A DNA stretch of 64,000 nt from Desulfatiglans anilini DSM 4660. GTDB taxonomy: Bacteria > Desulfobacterota > DSM-4660 > Desulfatiglandales > Desulfatiglandaceae. The notes beneath the pieces are model-generated. The model saw only the letters and a program-made list of their open reading frames with translations, was not told where the DNA came from and ran no database searches. The stretch lies in contig NZ_AULM01000016.1 of assembly GCF_000422285.1 (NCBI RefSeq), forward strand, positions 1 to 64,000. Direction: 5' to 3'. Positions 35,062 to 48,879 of this stretch are shown here, one piece after another. Position 1 is the first letter of the stretch; every line of letters begins with the position of its first letter. A program made the translations under genes and the position numbers.

Positions 35062-35235
35062 GTGTCCATCCGGTAATGGTCCCCCGGTACTACCCAGTTT
35101 CCAATCCGGGAATGAGGATTTTTAGCCAATATCAAGGAAATCCAGCGTTTGCGCGGAGGCGGCCTGGTGGTCGCCGCACAAGCAAACGTGCAGATGGACG
35201 CCGAGATTGGCAAAAAAGACCATTTCCGGATGGAA
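35062..35235 (-). repeat. Dispersed palindromic intergenic repeat, copy B
   Basis: On the minus strand this copy has the full order seen at 44522: left end CATCCGGAAATGGTC, outer arm TTTTTTGCCAATC, inner palindrome around GCTTGTGCGGCGACC, right arm GATATTGGC, then the tail unit beginning CTCATTCCCGGATTGG. It lies between two genes of the NikK/NikL-like set without breaking either. Confidence 0.8.
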
Positions 35236-35236
35236 G

Positions 35237-36046
35237 CTAGTTCATATCGCGGGTGCGCACCCAGTAGACAGCCCCGATTTCCACTTCCTTTTCCTGCCCG
35301 TCCTGGTTCAGCTTCCAGTCGGCCTTGCTAAGGGCGGAGAAGCCCCACCAGCCGGCCCTCGGCATGGCGTAGGTGAAAACGCCGCCGGCATCCGCCTTGA
35401 CCACCTGCGTCACGTAGGGATCGGCCGGCGGAGTGACGACATGGGTATTCCCGGGCGATTCGTTCAGATATTCAATTTCCACTTCGGCGAACGGAACCGG
35501 CTTGCCCTTGAGCAGCACCTGCCCTGTGAAGACATTCCCGGTCCACAGCCCGTAGGGGCGGGTCAACGGCACGATCTCCGTTTCCAAACCGACCGGCTGA
35601 TCCCAGCCTGCTTCCAGACCCAGGGCGTTGACGCAAACCTTGGTGTAATGGACGATGAAACAGTCTTCGGCGGGTTCCCAGTAAGGTGCAGGTTCTGTGT
35701 AGAAAGTATAGTCCCCCGGTCTGCGGATTTCAAAATCGGCGGTCCAGAAGGTGAAGGCTTCCGTCTGATCGGGGCTCTTTCCCTTGGACGCCCGAAGGCC
35801 GCCGAGCAAGTCGGTTTTCTCGCCGTTATGGACCACGGCGAATTGCTTCGGCTTTGCCATGTCCATGTAATGCATCTCCATGGGATGGATGAACTTGATC
35901 TGAAGAGTCAGATTCTTTGGGTCGTCCTTGGTCACGATGTCATCGGACGGTATGATCGCACCGAAGTGGCCCCAGGCGGGATGGAAAGACGCCGCCAGGA
36001 GGGTCAGAACTGCAGCGGTAAGGCATGAAAAGACTTTGCGCATCAT
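35237..36046 (-). CDS. DUF4198 periplasmic protein (NikK-like nickel/cobalt accessory)
   Basis: This protein of about 269 residues has a signal peptide ending AWG-HFG, so the mature protein again begins with His. The body matches DUF4198: [11 protein letters not shown] near the start, a [13 protein letters not shown] block with several His and Met that could bind metal, and strands up to [12 protein letters not shown]. In other bacteria such proteins (NikK) accompany nickel or cobalt ECF importers. I chose the ATG at 36046, six bases after AGAGG; a TTG two codons earlier is in frame. A NikR-like operator lies 45 bases upstream. No NikM, NikQ or NikO gene is in the window. Confidence 0.82.
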
Positions 36047-42796: not shown

Positions 42797-43407
42797 GTAT
42801 TTTCCTCTGTAATGGATTCGCTGCTCGGGATGTCCGGGCCGGAGGCGGCCGGGGATCCAGTTCCTGCCTCACGCGCGGCAAGCGTCCGCCTGAGGCCAAA
42901 CGGTCGGAAAATGGCCCAGGCGCCGACTCGCACCTCGCCTCTTTTTTCTATCATACCCTCGTCGGGGTTAAGCGGAAACCGCTTTTCGCGAGGAATTCGT
43001 TTTCATGAGGCGAGAAAGCACAGGAAGGACACAAGAACGGGTAGCCCGGCGGGACCCAAGTCCGCGAAGAAAGGGCCGTGTGCGTCCGCCGGCTCGAGAA
43101 CCCAGCGAAGCATAAGAGCCAGGAGTTTTTTGCCGGGGCCGGGACCTCTGGCGATCTGAACCTTTCCTGAGAGAAAAGGGGGCCCGAGGGCTGTCCTCAC
43201 CAAATCCATTTGACAAAATGAAGATAAACATATAAACGAGCATTTATATTATGCGCACCGGAAACAAGGCTGGGTGTGCGAGGCATCCCGCTCTTGAACC
43301 CCTGTCGTCAACAGGGACGCTGCGGGTGCCGGCGTCCGGACCGGGTGGAAAGTTCCTGACAACATGTGAGGTGGAAAGACCCGAAGGCGGAGCGAGGGTG
43401 GCTTTGA
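42797..43407. other. Intergenic region with ArsR promoter
   Basis: About 610 bases between divergent genes. The last third carries the promoter and operator listed next, followed by a leader of about 160 bases. The first part has no supported gene. Confidence 0.4.
43210..43249 (+). promoter_or_regulatory. Promoter with palindromic ArsR-type operator
   Basis: TTGACA (43210-43215) and TATAAA (43231-43236) form a promoter with a 15-base spacer. The -10 lies inside a perfect inverted repeat, ATATAAA-N6-TTTATAT (43230-43249). AT-rich palindromes of this type over the promoter are typical operators of ArsR/SmtB repressors, and an ArsR gene follows at 43408. Confidence 0.6.
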
Positions 43408-43803
43408 ATGGCAGCTAAAACGGTGCATAGGCCGAGGACTCCGGACAGGGAGTCGGACGTTTGCGGCGACGAGTGCGCGTTGGAGCACCAACCGGGCGGC
43501 GATGACCTTCAGCGTGCCGCTTTTCTTGCAAAGAGTCTTTCGGACCCTAATCGCCTGAAAATCTTGATGTCCATCAGCAAGGGCAGAAAATCGGTGTCCG
43601 CGATTGTCGAGGAGGTTGATCTGTCGCAGCCGCTGGTCTCGCACCATTTGAAGGAGTTGAAACGAGCCCTGCTGGTCAGGGTGAAGCGGGAAGGCCCGTT
43701 TGTTTACTATGATCTGGCGGACAAGAGAATTATGAATGTGTTGAAGATGTTAAGCGATATGGCCCTTGACCTGTCGGTCGAAGAGCAGGGATTCCGGGGA
43801 TGA
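43408..43803 (+). CDS. ArsR/SmtB-family transcriptional regulator
   Basis: The 131-residue product is a winged-helix repressor: LAKSLSDPNRLKILMSI is helix 1-2, VSAIVEEVDLSQPLVSHHLKELKRALLV is the DNA-reading helix-turn-helix, and REGPFVYYDLAD is the wing. The N-terminus holds Cys19 and Cys23 (VCGDEC), a possible metal- or persulfide-sensing pair; the classic CxC site in helix 3 is absent. It would leave DNA when its ligand binds. It leads the selenoprotein / TauE locus and probably controls itself through the palindrome at 43230-43249. Confidence 0.9.
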   Translation: MAAKTVHRPRTPDRESDVCGDECALEHQPGGDDLQRAAFLAKSLSDPNRLKILMSISKGRKSVSAIVEEVDLSQPLVSHHLKELKRALLVRVKREGPFVYYDLADKRIMNVLKMLSDMALDLSVEEQGFRG

Positions 43804-43854
43804 TATCCCGGCACGAGAAGTGTGTGAAGCAACGGGGACCTGCCCCGCACGGGT

Positions 43855-43942
43855 GGGACTGAGCACCCGAAGGGTGTGAAGCAAAATCCTCATTTCCGGA
43901 TTGGTCGATGGGTTGGCGGGAAATCCTTTCCGGATGGACACG
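43855..43942 (+). repeat. Partial copies of dispersed repeat (end segment and tail unit)
   Basis: GGGACTGAGCACCCGAAGGG (43855-43874) repeats the right end of copy A at 20046. CTCATTTCCGGATTGG to CCGGATGGACAC (43889-43942) repeats the tail unit found at 44642-44696, 35062-35115 and 57379-57434. It sits just before the first UGA-containing gene. Confidence 0.7.
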
Positions 43943-43957
43943 AGGTAGCTTGGGGGT

Positions 43958-44413
43958 ATGGATAAACTTTTCGAGAGTATCGCCGGCATGGCCCCGGAAG
44001 AGGCCCTGCCGGAAATCACCAGGATTCTGGGACGGCTTTTGCAGGATTTGGATCAGGAAGCCCGGGAACGCTTTCTGATGAACCTGATCGAGCAGTCGGA
44101 GGGCGACAGGGTTTCCAGCATGGTGCATTTGTGACTGGCGGAATGCATGGGCGAAGGTGTCGACCCGACGGAAATGTGTCAGAGTCTGGTGAACAAGGTT
44201 GCGCAATCGGAGCTGCTGCTTTCGATTGCGGATCCGGAGCTGCTGGTGCTTTTCGAAGACTGGCTGGATGAATTGGAGGCGGAGGTGCTGGCGCTTTCCA
44301 AAAAGCACGGGCGGTTGGATAGCAAAATGCTGGCTGAAAAACTCGGTCTCTCCTTGAGGGGCGCGACGTTTCTGCTGTCCAAACTTGAAAGGGAGGAGAG
44401 GCTACCCGGATGA
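43958..44413 (+). CDS. Unknown small protein with in-frame UGA (possible selenoprotein)
   Basis: Two open segments in the same frame are divided by one UGA at 44132-44134. Read through, they give 151 residues, mostly helical, with the UGA as residue 59 in SSMVHL-U-LAECMGEG. Acidic and Leu-rich helices fill both halves. I recognise no family. Downstream of the UGA, GGG CGA pairs with UCG A CCC around an AGGUG loop (44148-44166), 20 bases after it, a weak SECIS-like hairpin. Against readthrough, the second part has an ATG at 44147 with a poor GCGGA site, so two overlapping-style genes remain possible. The place right before two better selenoprotein candidates favours readthrough. Confidence 0.5.
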
Positions 44414-44521
44414 AGATGGAAGGGAGATGTGACGGCGGTCCTTTCGCTGCTGCGTGTCCGCGCGGCCGCGTGATTTTCAAAGTGTCAGCATCATGATCGT
44501 GTTTGCACAGAAATATAACAG

Positions 44522-44696
44522 TTTCCATCCGGAAATCGTCTTTTTTGCCAATCTCGGCGTCAATCTGCGCATTTGCTTGTGCGGCGACCTACAGGTCGCC
44601 TCCGCGCAAATGCTTGATTTCCTTGATATTGGCAAAAAATACTCATTTCCGGATTGGAAACTGGGTTGTACCGGGAAATCATTTCCGGATAGACAC
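44522..44696 (+). repeat. Dispersed palindromic intergenic repeat, copy D (complete)
   Basis: This copy shows the full element: CCATCCGGAAATCG, outer arm TTTTTTGCCAATC, inner palindrome (TTTGCTTGTGCGGCGACC with GGTCGCCTCCGCGCAAA), right arm GATATTGGCAAAAAA, then the tail unit CTCATTTCCGGATTGG to CCGGATAGACAC (44642-44696). It lies between the unknown UGA gene and the UxxC gene. Confidence 0.85.
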
Positions 44697-44718
44697 TAGA
44701 TACCAGGAGTGACGGAGC

Positions 44719-44988
44719 ATGCCCAAATTGACGGTATTTCACAGCGGCAACCCAGGTTGAGTTTCGTGCAGAAAGGCTATAGGCGTAGCCAACGACATGA
44801 AAGAGAAATTCAACGGGAAATTGGATGTGAACATCTACACGATCGATTCCGAAGAGGCCAGAGGGTATCTTTTCAGGAGCTCGACCAACGTTCTGTTCGA
44901 GGATGAATGGTTGCCTCTCGATGTAGCGACGGATAGACAAAAGATGGAGGAATTCTTATCAAAAAATATTAACGGAGGTCGACCATGA
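44719..44988 (+). CDS. Thioredoxin-fold selenoprotein with UxxC motif
   Basis: Read through the UGA at 44758-44760, this gives an 89-residue protein: KLTVFHSGNPG is the first strand and loop, U14-V-S-C17 is a UxxC redox motif at the helix start, then KAIGVANDMKEKF, the strand LDVNIYTID and FRSSTNVLFEDEWLPLDVA. A CxxC-type motif with its first Cys replaced by selenocysteine after the first strand is what a thioredoxin- or glutaredoxin-like active site would show. The first 13 codons are too short to be a gene alone, and the first ATG after the UGA has no ribosome site. AGGAG lies ten bases before the ATG at 44719. A SECIS-like hairpin follows. The stop overlaps the DsrE start by four bases (ATGA). 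The exact family is not recognised. Confidence 0.82.
44775..44790 (+). promoter_or_regulatory. Bacterial SECIS-like hairpin of the UxxC gene
   Basis: GGCTAT (44775-44780) pairs with GTAGCC (44785-44790), with one G-U pair, around an AGGC loop. The first loop G is 21 bases after the UGA, inside the 16-37 range expected of bacterial SECIS elements. Confidence 0.6.
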
Positions 44989-45296
44989 AAGTGTTGTTCA
45001 TCATTACCACGGAGGACGGGGAGACCATTTACAACGCCATGAGGCTGGCCAATGTCGGCGTGAAGAAGGGGGACGAGGTCAGCGTCTTCATGCTGGGCAA
45101 AGGGGTCCTTTTCGAACAGGCCGGCAGTGATCAGTTCGACGTCATGGGGCAGATGAACCAGTTCGAGGGTGATTTCTATGTCTGAGGCGTCTGCATGAAA
45201 TCCCACGGTCTCGTGGGATCAGCCTCCTGCCCTATCGGATGGATGGATGACCTCTATGAACTTTCCATTGACGCCGATAAGGTCTTGACCTTTTGA
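44985..45296 (+). CDS. DsrE-family sulfur-transfer selenoprotein
   Basis: Read through the UGA at 45183-45185, this gives a complete 103-residue DsrE-like protein. MKVLFIITTEDGETIYNAMRLAN is the usual first strand and helix, SVFMLGKGV the second strand, and the active loop reads GDFYV-U67-GVC70-MKSHG where family members have CGxC. The C-terminal part ends SCPIGWMDDLYELSIDADKVLTF, matching the typical CP...LYE...DKVLTF ending. DsrE proteins carry sulfur as persulfide; here Sec replaces the first Cys. DsrE-like selenoproteins are known in Sec-rich bacteria. Without readthrough the protein would lack a third of its fold. An excellent SECIS hairpin follows the UGA. It overlaps the UxxC gene, so the two are translated together and may exchange sulfur or electrons. 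Confidence 0.92.
45200..45219 (+). promoter_or_regulatory. Bacterial SECIS hairpin of the DsrE-like gene
   Basis: ATCCCACG (45200-45207) pairs perfectly with CGTGGGAT (45212-45219) around a GTCT loop. The loop G is 22 bases after the UGA. A strong stem with an early loop G at this distance is the expected form for SelB recognition. Confidence 0.75.
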
Positions 45297-45328
45297 CCCA
45301 ATGATGGGTTTGTTTTGCGCAGGCCCGG

Positions 45329-45377
45329 CATCGGACTCGCCGCGCCCTTGGAGCTCCCAAGCGGGGCGAGTCCGATG
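45329..45377. other. Strong hairpin between DsrE and TauE/SafE genes
   Basis: CATCGGACTCGCC (45329-45341) pairs perfectly over 13 bases with GGCGAGTCCGATG (45365-45377), loop 23 bases. No T-run follows, so it may pause or stabilise the transcript rather than end it. The arm GGCGAGTCCGAT recurs in the hairpin at 48773-48816. Confidence 0.6.
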
Positions 45378-45406
45378 GTCCGTTGCAGGCAGCAGAGGGG
45401 GATCCA

Positions 45407-46195
45407 GTGGATTTCGTGATTGTCGGGGTCGCCGCGCTATTTGTCTCGGGGCTCACGCTGTTTTCCGGGTTCGGCCTGGGTACGATTCTGATGCCGGTCT
45501 TCGCCCTGTTCTTTCCCCTCGAGGTCGCGGTCGCCGCCACGGCGGTGGTCCATGGGGCAAACAACGTCTTCAAGATCGCAGTGGTCGGCAAACACGCGGA
45601 CAGGACGCTTGTCGTCCGCTTCGGGGTGCCGGCGATCCTCGCTGCCTTCGCCGGGGCGGCCGCCCTCGGCTATGTCTCCCATCTGGGAGAGATAGCCCGC
45701 TACGCGATCGGAGGGCGGACCGCCGTCATCACGCCGATCAAGCTGGTCATGGGGGTCCTGATGCTGGGGTTTGCCTGCTTCGAGCTCTTGCCGCAGCTGC
45801 GGGCGCTGAAATTCGACCGCAGGTATCTCCTGTTGGGCGGCCTCCTCTCAGGCTTTTTCGGCGGCTTTTCAGGGCACCAGGGAGCCCTGCGATCGGCATT
45901 TCTGGCCAAGGTGGGGATTTCCACCGAGGCCTTCGTGGGGACCAACGCCCTGATCGGGTTCATGGTGGACATGGCGCGGATCGCCACCTATGCGGCCACC
46001 TTCTTGATGGCAAAGGCCGCCAATCCGATCGGGCCCGAACAGTGGCCGCTGATTCTTACGGGCACCCTCGCCGCCTTTCTCGGTGTCATGGCCGGCAAGC
46101 GCTTCCTTCACAAGATCACCATGGCGTCCATCCAGACCTTGACTGGCGGGCTCCTGGTGGTGATTGCCCTGGCGTTGGCGACCGGTGTGATCTGA
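45407..46195 (+). CDS. TauE/SafE-family permease in selenoprotein locus
   Basis: The 262-residue product has eight helices and the paired blocks of the family: LTLFSGFGLGTILMPVFALF in the first half and LSGFFGGFSGHQGALRSAFL in the second, with a shared VAATAVVHGANNVFK / FVGTNALIGFMVD pattern. Known members export sulfite, taurine-derived sulfonates or related anions. The GTG at 45407 has AGAGGGG upstream; the frame before it has no ribosome site. It shares no close sequence pattern with the permease at 11968. Its position behind the DsrE and UxxC selenoproteins suggests transport of a sulfur or selenium oxyanion handled by that relay. Confidence 0.9.
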   Translation: MDFVIVGVAALFVSGLTLFSGFGLGTILMPVFALFFPLEVAVAATAVVHGANNVFKIAVVGKHADRTLVVRFGVPAILAAFAGAAALGYVSHLGEIARYAIGGRTAVITPIKLVMGVLMLGFACFELLPQLRALKFDRRYLLLGGLLSGFFGGFSGHQGALRSAFLAKVGISTEAFVGTNALIGFMVDMARIATYAATFLMAKAANPIGPEQWPLILTGTLAAFLGVMAGKRFLHKITMASIQTLTGGLLVVIALALATGVI

Positions 46196-46234
46196 ACCAA
46201 GGGCAAGGAAAAAGAATCGGAGAGGAGGTAGAGC

Positions 46235-47728
46235 GTGAATTCGACCATAAGCCACAAAATTCAGAAATCGCTTTGGGCCTGCGCCGGAGCGTTCTTTTGG
46301 CTGCTGTGTCCGGTCGTCTGCCCCTTTGCGCAGTGTTCTGAAGAGGAGGCGCTCAAGGCGCGGATCGAGAAGCTCGAGAAGATCATCCTGGACTACAAGC
46401 GTGTCATGGAGGCTCATGAGGAAGAACTGTCCGCGATGAAAGAGCAGTTGAAGAGACAGGATTCCGAGGTCGAACAGAAGATCGAAGCCGCTGTCAAGAA
46501 GCCGGAGCACGAGGAGTACCTGCGCGAAATCATGCAAAGCATACGGCTTACAGAGGCGCAGGAAGGACCCAGAGAAGAGAGCCTCAGGACGCTTTATGAC
46601 GACGGATTCTATTTGAAGGGAGCCGATGACCAGCTTCGGATCGGCGGATGGCTGCAAGCGGATTCACGCTGGTACCTCGACAGCGGGCATCCCGAGAGCA
46701 GCACATTTCTGATGCGAAGGGCTCGGCTGGATGTCCGGGGCATTCTCGAAAACGATTGGGGATACCGGCTATACGGCACCTTCATAGGCGAGCGCAACGG
46801 GATCCTCCAGGAAGGGTGGCTCGAATACCGCAAGTATCCGGAAATGCGCATTCGTGCAGGACAGGTGCTGGAGCCTTTCAGCCTGGAGGCCGTATACTCC
46901 GCACGATGGACCGACTTTATGGAGCGCGCGATGGTCGTCAACGCGCTTTCGCCACAGGAAGACATCGGGCTCATGGCCTTCGGGAAGGTGTACCGAAACC
47001 AGCTGGAGTGGGCCGCCGGATTCTTCAACGGCCAGGGACGCAATGACGAGGCGGTGGTCGACGACAAGGACTTCACTGCGCGAATCGTCTATGCCCCCTT
47101 TTACCATTCGAGTTCTCTTCCGTCGCTGAAAGATCTGTACGTGGGCGGGTCCTTCAGCACAGGTAACAATGAACGGGATCTTTCGGGGATTGAATTTACG
47201 ACGCAGGCATTCACCCCGTTTTTCGATTTTCAGCCTGGCGTTGACCAGGATGACAGGCTGACCCGCTGGGGCTTGGAGTTGGAGTACCTCAGCGGGCCGT
47301 TCAATCTGAAGACGGAGTATCTGTCCGGACATTTCGAGACGGTTAAAAACACGGAGTATTCCACCGAGTTCGATGTGCACGGGTATTACCTCAATCTGGG
47401 TTATGTCCTGACCGGGGAGGATTCGCCGCGCGATCTCCCCATCAAGCCGAAGGCGGTTTTCGATCCTTCCCAGGGGGGATGGGGAGCCTGGCAGGTGGTG
47501 GGGCGGTATCAAATCTTCAGAGTCTCCGATGAACTGCTTCGACTTGGACTTGCCACCGGGACCGACAAGGCCCAGTCGATCACCGTAGGATTGAACTGGT
47601 TCCCGAACAGGCACATCCGCTTTCAGTTCAATCTGGACCACGCCTGGTTTAGGGATGAAATCACCGTTAAGGGGGTGCCGCTAGATAGCGAGACCACCTT
47701 TACCACGCGGCTTTTATATGACTTCTGA
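46235..47728 (+). CDS. Phosphate-selective porin O/P-type outer-membrane protein
   Basis: The 497-residue product has a signal peptide (about 1-34), a coiled-coil stretch (about 38-80, ALKARIEKLEKIILDYKRVMEAHEE region) and a porin barrel of the OprO/OprP family. The barrel begins DDGFYLKGADDQLRIGGWLQADSRW, has FLMRRARLDVRG, and ends in TTFTTRLLYDF with terminal Phe. OprP-like porins are selective for phosphate, pyrophosphate and other anions. AGGAGG precedes the GTG start. It follows the TauE/SafE gene by 40 bases on the same strand, fitting a joint inner- and outer-membrane path for an oxyanion. Confidence 0.88.
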   Translation: MNSTISHKIQKSLWACAGAFFWLLCPVVCPFAQCSEEEALKARIEKLEKIILDYKRVMEAHEEELSAMKEQLKRQDSEVEQKIEAAVKKPEHEEYLREIMQSIRLTEAQEGPREESLRTLYDDGFYLKGADDQLRIGGWLQADSRWYLDSGHPESSTFLMRRARLDVRGILENDWGYRLYGTFIGERNGILQEGWLEYRKYPEMRIRAGQVLEPFSLEAVYSARWTDFMERAMVVNALSPQEDIGLMAFGKVYRNQLEWAAGFFNGQGRNDEAVVDDKDFTARIVYAPFYHSSSLPSLKDLYVGGSFSTGNNERDLSGIEFTTQAFTPFFDFQPGVDQDDRLTRWGLELEYLSGPFNLKTEYLSGHFETVKNTEYSTEFDVHGYYLNLGYVLTGEDSPRDLPIKPKAVFDPSQGGWGAWQVVGRYQIFRVSDELLRLGLATGTDKAQSITVGLNWFPNRHIRFQFNLDHAWFRDEITVKGVPLDSETTFTTRLLYDF

Positions 47729-47908
47729 GTCTTACGGGCCGGCCGGAGACCGCATTTGGATCTGTTCCCAAGTGCTGAAGGCTCTCCTGGCTGGATACGC
47801 AGGGGCGAGCCCCCTCTTTCTGCGGCCGTTGGGCGGATGTGATCTTCGCTTACGAGTGAGTCGCGAAATTTAATTCTACTAGATGGTAAGAGTAGGTGGC
47901 CGTAGCCG

Positions 47909-48733
47909 ATGAAGTGGCAGGCAGATGCCGAGGCAGAGGTGAAAAAGGCGCCGTTTTTTGTTCGGAAGCGGGTCCGCCAGCGCGTGGAGGCGCAGGTTTC
48001 GGCGGAAGGACGCCAGGTGGTCACGCTGGACGACGTGCAGGCGGCGAAGAAGCGCTTTCTGAGCCGGATGAGCGAAGAGGTTCAGGGTTTTCAGGTGGAG
48101 GCCTGCTTCGGATCGCAAGGGTGTCCCAATCGGATCATCGAAGACAGCGGCCTGGTGCGGTCGATTGAAAAGGTTTTCCTGGAGCAGGATCTGCGGGGTT
48201 TTCTGGAGCGGACGGTGCCCGGTCCTTTGAAGCTTCATCATGAATTCCGCGTTGCCCTGGCAGACTGTCCGAATGCGTGCTCCCAGCCGCAAATCAAGGA
48301 TATCGGGTTGATAGGTGCGGCCGCGCCGTTGCGAACGGAAATCCCTTGCAGTGAATGCGGCGCCTGCCAGGATGTGTGCCGGGAGGGGGCCGTGGCGGTC
48401 GACCCGGTCGGCCACGGCCCGGTGTTCGAGTGGGACCGCTGCGTCCGGTGCGGACAGTGCATCGGAGCCTGTCCCACCGGCACGATAGGCTGCGGGGAGC
48501 GGGGGTATCGGCTGCTGATCGGGGGCAAGCTCGGGCGTCACCCGAGACTGGCGGAAGAACTCCCCGGCCTCTACGATGCGGATACGGTCCTGCATCTGCT
48601 GGAGTTTTGTGTTCGGTACTATAAGGAGCACAGCAAGGGTGGAGAAAGGTTCGCGGCCCTGGTGGAAAGGGCCGGGCCGGCATTTTTCGACCTCCTGTCG
48701 GCGGAAGCCCGTCATTGCCGGAAAGACGCCTGA
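47909..48733 (+). CDS. Siroheme/4Fe-4S reductase-like protein with PCP_red and ferredoxin domains
   Basis: This 274-residue protein has three parts. Residues about 3-50 match the small PCP_red domain (WQADAEAEVKKAPFFVRKRV). Next is a minimal nitrite/sulfite-reductase-type iron-sulfur siroheme half: C66-x5-C72 in ACFGSQGCPNR and C120-x3-C124 in ADCPNACSQPQ, the usual four Cys of the coupled cluster. Then two ferredoxin clusters follow (C147, C150, C153, C157 and C178, C181, C184, C188). It lacks the second repeat of full sulfite reductases, as in small assimilatory-type or Asr-like proteins. It would reduce a sulfur, nitrogen or selenium oxyanion in the cytoplasm. It runs with the selenoprotein and porin genes, 180 bases after the porin. 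Confidence 0.87.
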   Translation: MKWQADAEAEVKKAPFFVRKRVRQRVEAQVSAEGRQVVTLDDVQAAKKRFLSRMSEEVQGFQVEACFGSQGCPNRIIEDSGLVRSIEKVFLEQDLRGFLERTVPGPLKLHHEFRVALADCPNACSQPQIKDIGLIGAAAPLRTEIPCSECGACQDVCREGAVAVDPVGHGPVFEWDRCVRCGQCIGACPTGTIGCGERGYRLLIGGKLGRHPRLAEELPGLYDADTVLHLLEFCVRYYKEHSKGGERFAALVERAGPAFFDLLSAEARHCRKDA

Positions 48734-48772
48734 CAGCCCCCTCAGATCGTCCGTAGAAGAGAAAAAACAGCA

Positions 48773-48816
48773 AAACGGTATCGGATTCGCAGGTTCCGGC
48801 GAGTCCGATACCGTTT
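48773..48816. terminator. Long hairpin between convergent genes
   Basis: AAACGGTATCGGATTCGC (48773-48790) pairs with GCGAGTCCGATACCGTTT (48799-48816), 18 base pairs with one G-U, loop eight bases. It separates the convergent siroheme gene and pckA and is preceded by an A-rich run, so it can end transcripts from the pckA side and perhaps both. One arm shares GGCGAGTCCGAT with the hairpin at 45329. Confidence 0.65.
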
Positions 48817-48879
48817 CGCAAGCGGCCGAGGTTCACATCGCTGCGGCCAGCCGGCAGGGCGCTTTTACCCCCTGCTGAA

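Follow-up and report, generated by a model that had tools for sequence, protein, structure and literature searches.

The segment at positions 43210-48733 of a 64,000-nt stretch of the Desulfatiglans anilini DSM 4660 genome (contig NZ_AULM01000016.1; this whole stretch is called the window below) is, judging from its sequence, a Tso selenoprotein operon in variant form, which in this lineage contains genes for a DsrE-like selenoprotein and a TauE-family transporter and has neither TsoB nor TsoC. The best explanation of the locus, to which we give about even confidence, is a repressor-controlled, selenocysteine-based relay of sulfane sulfur (or selenium) with optional export of an anion. All seven genes of the segment are on the + strand, with UGA read as selenocysteine (Sec) in translation, and each is backed by Pfam or NCBIfam; TsoX is assigned by NCBIfam and has no Pfam match.

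Tso ("three selenoprotein operon") is known from sulfate-reducing bacteria. A 2026 review (PMC13188914), in its passages on these proteins, covers TsoA, TsoB, TsoC, TsoX, TsoY and the operon itself, gives no function for it there, and names Haft and Tolstoy 2025 as the source. Tso is among the few operons of bacteria that encode several selenoproteins and lack an assigned function. An earlier note on this DNA listed eight features in the segment and considered them a candidate for a new sulfur/selenium system, knowing of no described counterpart with the full set. Each of the eight is present, as follows from reading and translating the sequence and from Pfam and NCBIfam, but the regulator and two of the selenoproteins belong to the named NCBIfam families TsoR, TsoA and TsoX, and the operon is in the literature; the idea of a new complete system finds no support outside the tso part.

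As in the standard Tso arrangement, TsoR, TsoA and TsoX score above the family cut-offs and the regulator is directly upstream of TsoA. The difference is in the downstream part, where the standard operon has TsoB and TsoC, while here the DsrE selenoprotein and TauE take this place and neither TsoB nor TsoC was found in the genome. TsoB is a rhodanese/DsbD selenoprotein, and its best match here (541 bits, below 805) is a Sec-free DsbD on another contig; TsoC, a selenoprotein with the motif NEPxGxxU, has no match in this genome, and the TsoC model does recognise locus L158. The features of the tso part are as follows.

43210-43215, + strand: TTGACA box of the tso promoter, resembling a -35 element, seen in the sequence; such a box is usual before the operator elsewhere, at somewhat variable spacing
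43230-43249, + strand: putative TsoR operator, 20-bp palindrome ATATAAACGAGCATTTATAT, conserved in almost all loci ahead of tsoR or of whichever gene opens the operon
43231-43236, + strand: AT-rich operator half-site TATAAA, probably doubling as the -10 element
43408-43803, + strand: TsoR, ArsR/SmtB-type repressor (NF045707, 145.6 bits, cut-off 115; Pfam ArsR, HTH_5)
43958-44413, + strand: TsoA selenoprotein with LULAEC, matching the family motif LULAxC, and a C-terminal segment resembling a helix-turn-helix (HTH) (NF045695, 205.4 bits, cut-off 170)
44132-44134, + strand: Sec UGA of TsoA, residue 59 (TGA in 88 of 89 homologues)
44719-44988, + strand: TsoX selenoprotein, accessory member of the operon with the family motif HSGNPxU, thioredoxin fold, U14-V-S-C17 (NF045809, 138.5 bits, cut-off 52)
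44758-44760, + strand: Sec UGA of TsoX (TGA in 14 of 14 homologues)
44985-45296, + strand: DsrE-like selenoprotein, U67-G-V-C70 (PF02635, 41.2 bits, cut-off 22.7)
45183-45185, + strand: Sec UGA of DsrE (TGA in 39 of 39 homologues, with conserved downstream sequence)

The UGA codons of tsoA, tsoX and dsrE are, by these comparisons, selenocysteine codons. The genome encodes the Sec machinery, with SelB at 387 bits (cut-off 242) and tRNA-Sec at 71.7 bits, and a hairpin starts at nucleotide 18 after each UGA. In single-sequence folding this hairpin is stronger than in shuffled sequences for both TsoX and DsrE (z of -2.3 and -3.3, respectively), while in TsoA it is weak, being no better than shuffles and appearing in the centroid structure only; the RNAalifold consensus of the DsrE selenocysteine insertion sequence (SECIS) is uninformative, as the alignment is too conserved.

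TsoX has a thioredoxin fold, with an AlphaFold confidence (predicted local distance difference test, pLDDT) of 89 and Foldseek matches to thioredoxins. Its gene overlaps the start of dsrE by 4 nt. DsrE is, by its fold family PF02635, predicted to be a protein of the sulfur-carrier type. A DsrE-like selenoprotein has been described before, e.g. in Desulfovibrio vulgaris (Zhang 2006, PMC1794560), with the same combination of the DsrE/DsrF family and Sec; the protein of the window differs in belonging to an operon under putative TsoR control. In TsoA, U59, C63 and C74 are invariant among homologues, and Pfam yields weak HTH matches only. At the C-terminus 21 of 47 members give a weak match to an HTH model, and the predicted structure is all-helical, of low confidence (predicted template modelling score 0.39), with weak fold matches from the HTH-like C-terminus only.

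The palindrome at 43230-43249, which the earlier note had assigned to the ArsR-type protein as its own operator, is conserved at the sequence level far above chance, and this comparison identifies it as a real TsoR operator overlapping the promoter region. Nearly all of the TsoA loci, about 80 in number, have a matching operator before tsoR or before the first operon gene; binding by TsoR is inferred from this conservation at tso loci. Close matches upstream of TsoR were found in 55 of 79 regions (p <= 0.01 against shuffles), and most of the loci without a close match gain a profile site further upstream. A scan of 1.39 Mb of loci gives about one strong site per locus with a profile built from the matched sites, which are themselves part of the scanned sequence; neither the extra sites nor the scarcity of stray matches depends on this training. 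The flanks extend the palindrome to ATCAAC-N20-GTTGAT, and the 64-kb window contains a single copy.

In loci L004, L006 and L007 the upstream operator (about 1.4 kb from TsoA) precedes a thioredoxin reductase gene located before TsoR, and in L054, L064 and L074 it precedes a CopG-like gene in the same place; the operator thus reveals these genes as the start of some Tso operons. It is also a direct handle on the system, since it defines the regulon and makes the signal testable. Second operators of the TsoR type occur at L061:10180, L072:11937 and L041:14220, the first two close to genes of CopG-like and DsrE/F-like type, and would point to a wider TsoR regulon in some genomes. The long leader of the window operon has no Rfam match to a riboswitch or other known RNA.

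The N-terminal CxxxC of TsoR, which had been proposed as the sensing motif, is found in the window protein alone among about 80 TsoR sequences, and no Cys is conserved across them, so that sensing by this motif has to be abandoned. The alpha3 CxC of ArsR arsenic sensors is also absent, this position reading KSVSAIV. These observations bear on a different explanation, namely that the locus is a metal or metalloid resistance operon in which TsoR is a metalloregulator and the selenoproteins act by binding or reducing thiophilic species such as arsenic or mercury. It agrees with the NCBIfam label of TsoR (metalloregulator), with genes for S-adenosylmethionine methyltransferases and VTT-domain proteins near some Tso loci, and with the passages of the review cited above, according to which most selenoproteins of the papers treated there are implicated in metal(loid) resistance. 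Nevertheless, besides the lack of the CxC and of any conserved Cys, neither ArsB, ArsC and MerA nor a metal ATPase recurs among the neighbour families examined, and we consider a resistance operon unlikely.

The gene neighbours in other species point to sulfur-transfer or thiol-redox chemistry. Of 65 TsoA loci whose downstream sequence extends for at least 2.5 kb, 62 have TsoR, up to 37 have TsoB, 37 TsoC, 14 DsrE, 12 TsoX, 10 an SQR-like gene, nine thioredoxin reductase and one TauE; none has the porin or the siroheme gene found at the right end of the window locus. At least one sulfur-handling gene (rhodanese/TsoB, DsrE type or SQR-like) is present in 60 of the 65. Hence, as far as sequence comparison goes, the conserved unit is TsoR-TsoA, often accompanied by TsoX and DsrE, and the gene order noted in the window is conserved for TsoR-TsoA and, in part, for DsrE downstream of TsoA, but not for TauE, porin and siroheme gene. 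No plasmid carriage of TsoA was found.

Moreover, DsrE and TsoB downstream of TsoA exclude each other: both are found together in no locus, DsrE only in 14, TsoB only in 37, and neither in 14 (nominal Fisher p 7e-7). Such exclusion is expected if DsrE does the job of the rhodanese part of TsoB, and after allowing for kinship it is suggestive. The label DsrE switches about 12 times along the tree of TsoA, and well-supported branches force at least three of these switches. With a DsrE selenoprotein replacing TsoB, the operon may have the passing on of sulfane sulfur (or selenium) as its core job. TsoR-TsoA together with DsrE is present also in a culturable relative, Desulfoferrobacter suflitae DRH4 (locus L057). 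In loci L018, L019 and L026, DsrE/DsrF-like genes stand in a row beside TsoR-TsoA, in the place of TsoB.

The three remaining genes of the segment are less firmly connected with this unit.

45407-46195, + strand: TauE/SafE-family transporter (PF01925, 74.7 bits, cut-off 32.6)
46235-47728, + strand: Porin_O_P outer-membrane porin (PF07396, 136 bits)
47909-48733, + strand: siroheme/[4Fe-4S] sulfite/nitrite-reductase-like protein with a PCP_red N-terminus (NIR_SIR, PCP_red and ferredoxin domains)

TauE directly follows dsrE also in one other genome of the family (G014, 74% identical ortholog), and the other genomes among the 46 of this family, apart from its own, have no full ortholog. A wider search of 85 genomes added one more TauE, 50% identical, with the other genes absent within its 2.6 kb. 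No porin homologue was found in about 110 TsoA or DsrE loci. Genome G020, which belongs to the same genus and is about 96% identical in this region, lacks TsoR and TsoA, two-thirds of TsoX from its 5' end, most of TauE and the whole porin, while DsrE and the siroheme protein (98% identical each) are intact; remnants of TsoX and TauE are still present, and therefore the differences are deletions in G020. These deletions, together with the neighbourhood counts, speak against a single seven-gene system that senses, relays, reduces and transports, as had been suggested. What stands of that suggestion is a selenoprotein operon under an ArsR-type repressor that has an operator of its own, and partners across species that suggest sulfur-transfer or thiol-redox chemistry.

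The same data could be taken to mean that the genes form a chance row without common function: the porin is never linked elsewhere, TauE rarely, and most of the genes were lost in a genome of the same genus. This is very improbable for the locus as a whole, given TsoR-TsoA in 62 of 65 loci, the presence of about one operator per locus, the recurrence of TsoX and DsrE downstream, and TauE after DsrE in two genera. The porin and the siroheme protein are probably separate neighbours of Tso.

The siroheme protein has 274 aa, with C66-X5-C72 and C120-X3-C124 invariant in seven homologues and two 4Fe-4S sites, and its nearest solved structure is the C-terminal part of F420-dependent sulfite reductase. 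It shares the C-X5-C ... C-X3-C motif and two ferredoxin clusters with the siroheme domain of AsrC, Fsr and DsrB, but differs from AsrC in its size and PCP_red N-terminus (AsrC model 81.7 bits, cut-off 324), and no AsrA or AsrB partner was seen. It is plausibly a reductase of the sulfite/nitrite type that this lineage has linked to DsrE, and it stands outside Tso in general. G039 carries a row (L135:377-3001) in which the siroheme gene stands 21 bp ahead of DsrE and a gene for a multihaem cytochrome, weakly resembling hydrazine dehydrogenase, comes next.

This pairing of the siroheme gene with DsrE in G039, and its retention in G020, suggest one more alternative, a nitrosative- or sulfite-stress unit in which the siroheme reductase and DsrE (with hybrid cluster protein, Hcp, nearby in relatives) reduce nitrite, nitric oxide-derived species or sulfite, the Tso genes being passengers. 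Siroheme homologues (50-56% identical) adjoin hcp in three of the four relative loci examined, and in another sulfate reducer nitrate raises a siroheme protein of other domain make-up, AsrABC and Hcp (PMC10949509), which is consistent with such a unit. On the other hand, the siroheme gene is near no TsoA in other genomes, it lacks a TsoR operator of its own in the window, and it begins 180 bp beyond the porin, so that stress reduction would cover the right end of the locus and not the tso part; we regard it as an improbable account. In L161, L162 and L164 the PCP_red/NIR_SIR protein stands beside Hcp (hydroxylamine reductase), with HD-domain and ferredoxin genes next in some of them, possibly a nitrosative-stress cluster in this family.

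The sulfane-sulfur (or selenium) relay could work as follows, its chemistry, signal and export being predicted from sequence. In the absence of signal TsoR would bind 43230-43249 and block the promoter; the signal relieving it would most likely be reactive sulfane sulfur (persulfide or polysulfide) or its selenium counterpart. DsrE (UxxC) would accept sulfane sulfur or selenium, as the rhodanese domain of TsoB would elsewhere, and TsoX (thioredoxin fold, UxxC) would reduce or relay it, the electrons coming from thioredoxin reductase, whose gene opens some Tso operons. In loci that have TauE, this transporter would export the anionic product; the reading rests also on TauE adjoining DsrE in both genera with a close ortholog. 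TsoA, with its all-helical prediction and HTH-like C-terminus, could be a sensing partner of TsoR or a metal or sulfur carrier. It is a candidate for the former role because it almost always adjoins TsoR. A more specific version, a two-part sensor in which TsoR provides the binding to DNA and TsoA reads the signal via U59, C63 and C74 and contacts TsoR or DNA via the HTH-like C-terminus, seems rather doubtful to us; if true, this would be a transcriptional sensor based on selenocysteine. Other bacteria have ArsR regulators that respond to sulfane sulfur and have rhodanese, SQR and TauE targets (PMC12423496). The regulons of BigR, SqrR, SoxR and sHdrR are similar to the one proposed here in having a repressor with a palindromic operator and sulfurtransferase, SQR and TauE-type targets.

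Several observations weigh against this relay. TsoR has neither of the two conserved Cys of the BigR/SqrR/SoxR/sHdrR sensors (BigR model 47.8 bits, cut-off 155); sulfur is a proposed signal, and the substrates of all components are likewise putative. The TsoB/DsrE exclusion comes down to three independent contrasts on supported branches (sign test p 0.25), and neighbour clustering can miss fragmented genes. DsrE of this type is found in 23 of the 46 genomes of the family (full-length matches 74-99% identical, all with UGA) and TsoA in nine; most of the 23 have DsrE without TsoR or operator, the profile scan finding no operator near DsrE in loci lacking TsoR, so that DsrE has a role of its own. 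Finally, the gene set is not compact, being interrupted by repeats, by a hairpin between dsrE and tauE and by the 180-bp gap before the siroheme gene. Repeats and hairpin may split this copy into several transcripts, and one shared transcript is thus unsure here.

43883-43947, + strand: partial copy (right end) of a dispersed repeat, between tsoR and tsoA
44515-44700, no strand assigned: dispersed palindromic repeat of about 180 bp, between tsoA and tsoX, with about 40 near-full copies in its own genome
45329-45377, no strand assigned: strong hairpin in the dsrE/tauE gap, 17-nt arms, 94%, no T-run, kept in G020

The near-full copies of the repeat, which resembles a miniature inverted-repeat transposable element or a repetitive extragenic palindromic element, come from 370 candidates scored; it is also present in G020, and a further copy lies in the window at 35062-35238. 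The hairpin at 45329-45377 is possibly an attenuator or an RNA processing site. Another strong hairpin, at 48767-48822, lies past the siroheme gene, between it and the convergent PEPCK gene, and its arms hold a sequence much like that of the dsrE/tauE hairpin (CGAGTCCGAT).

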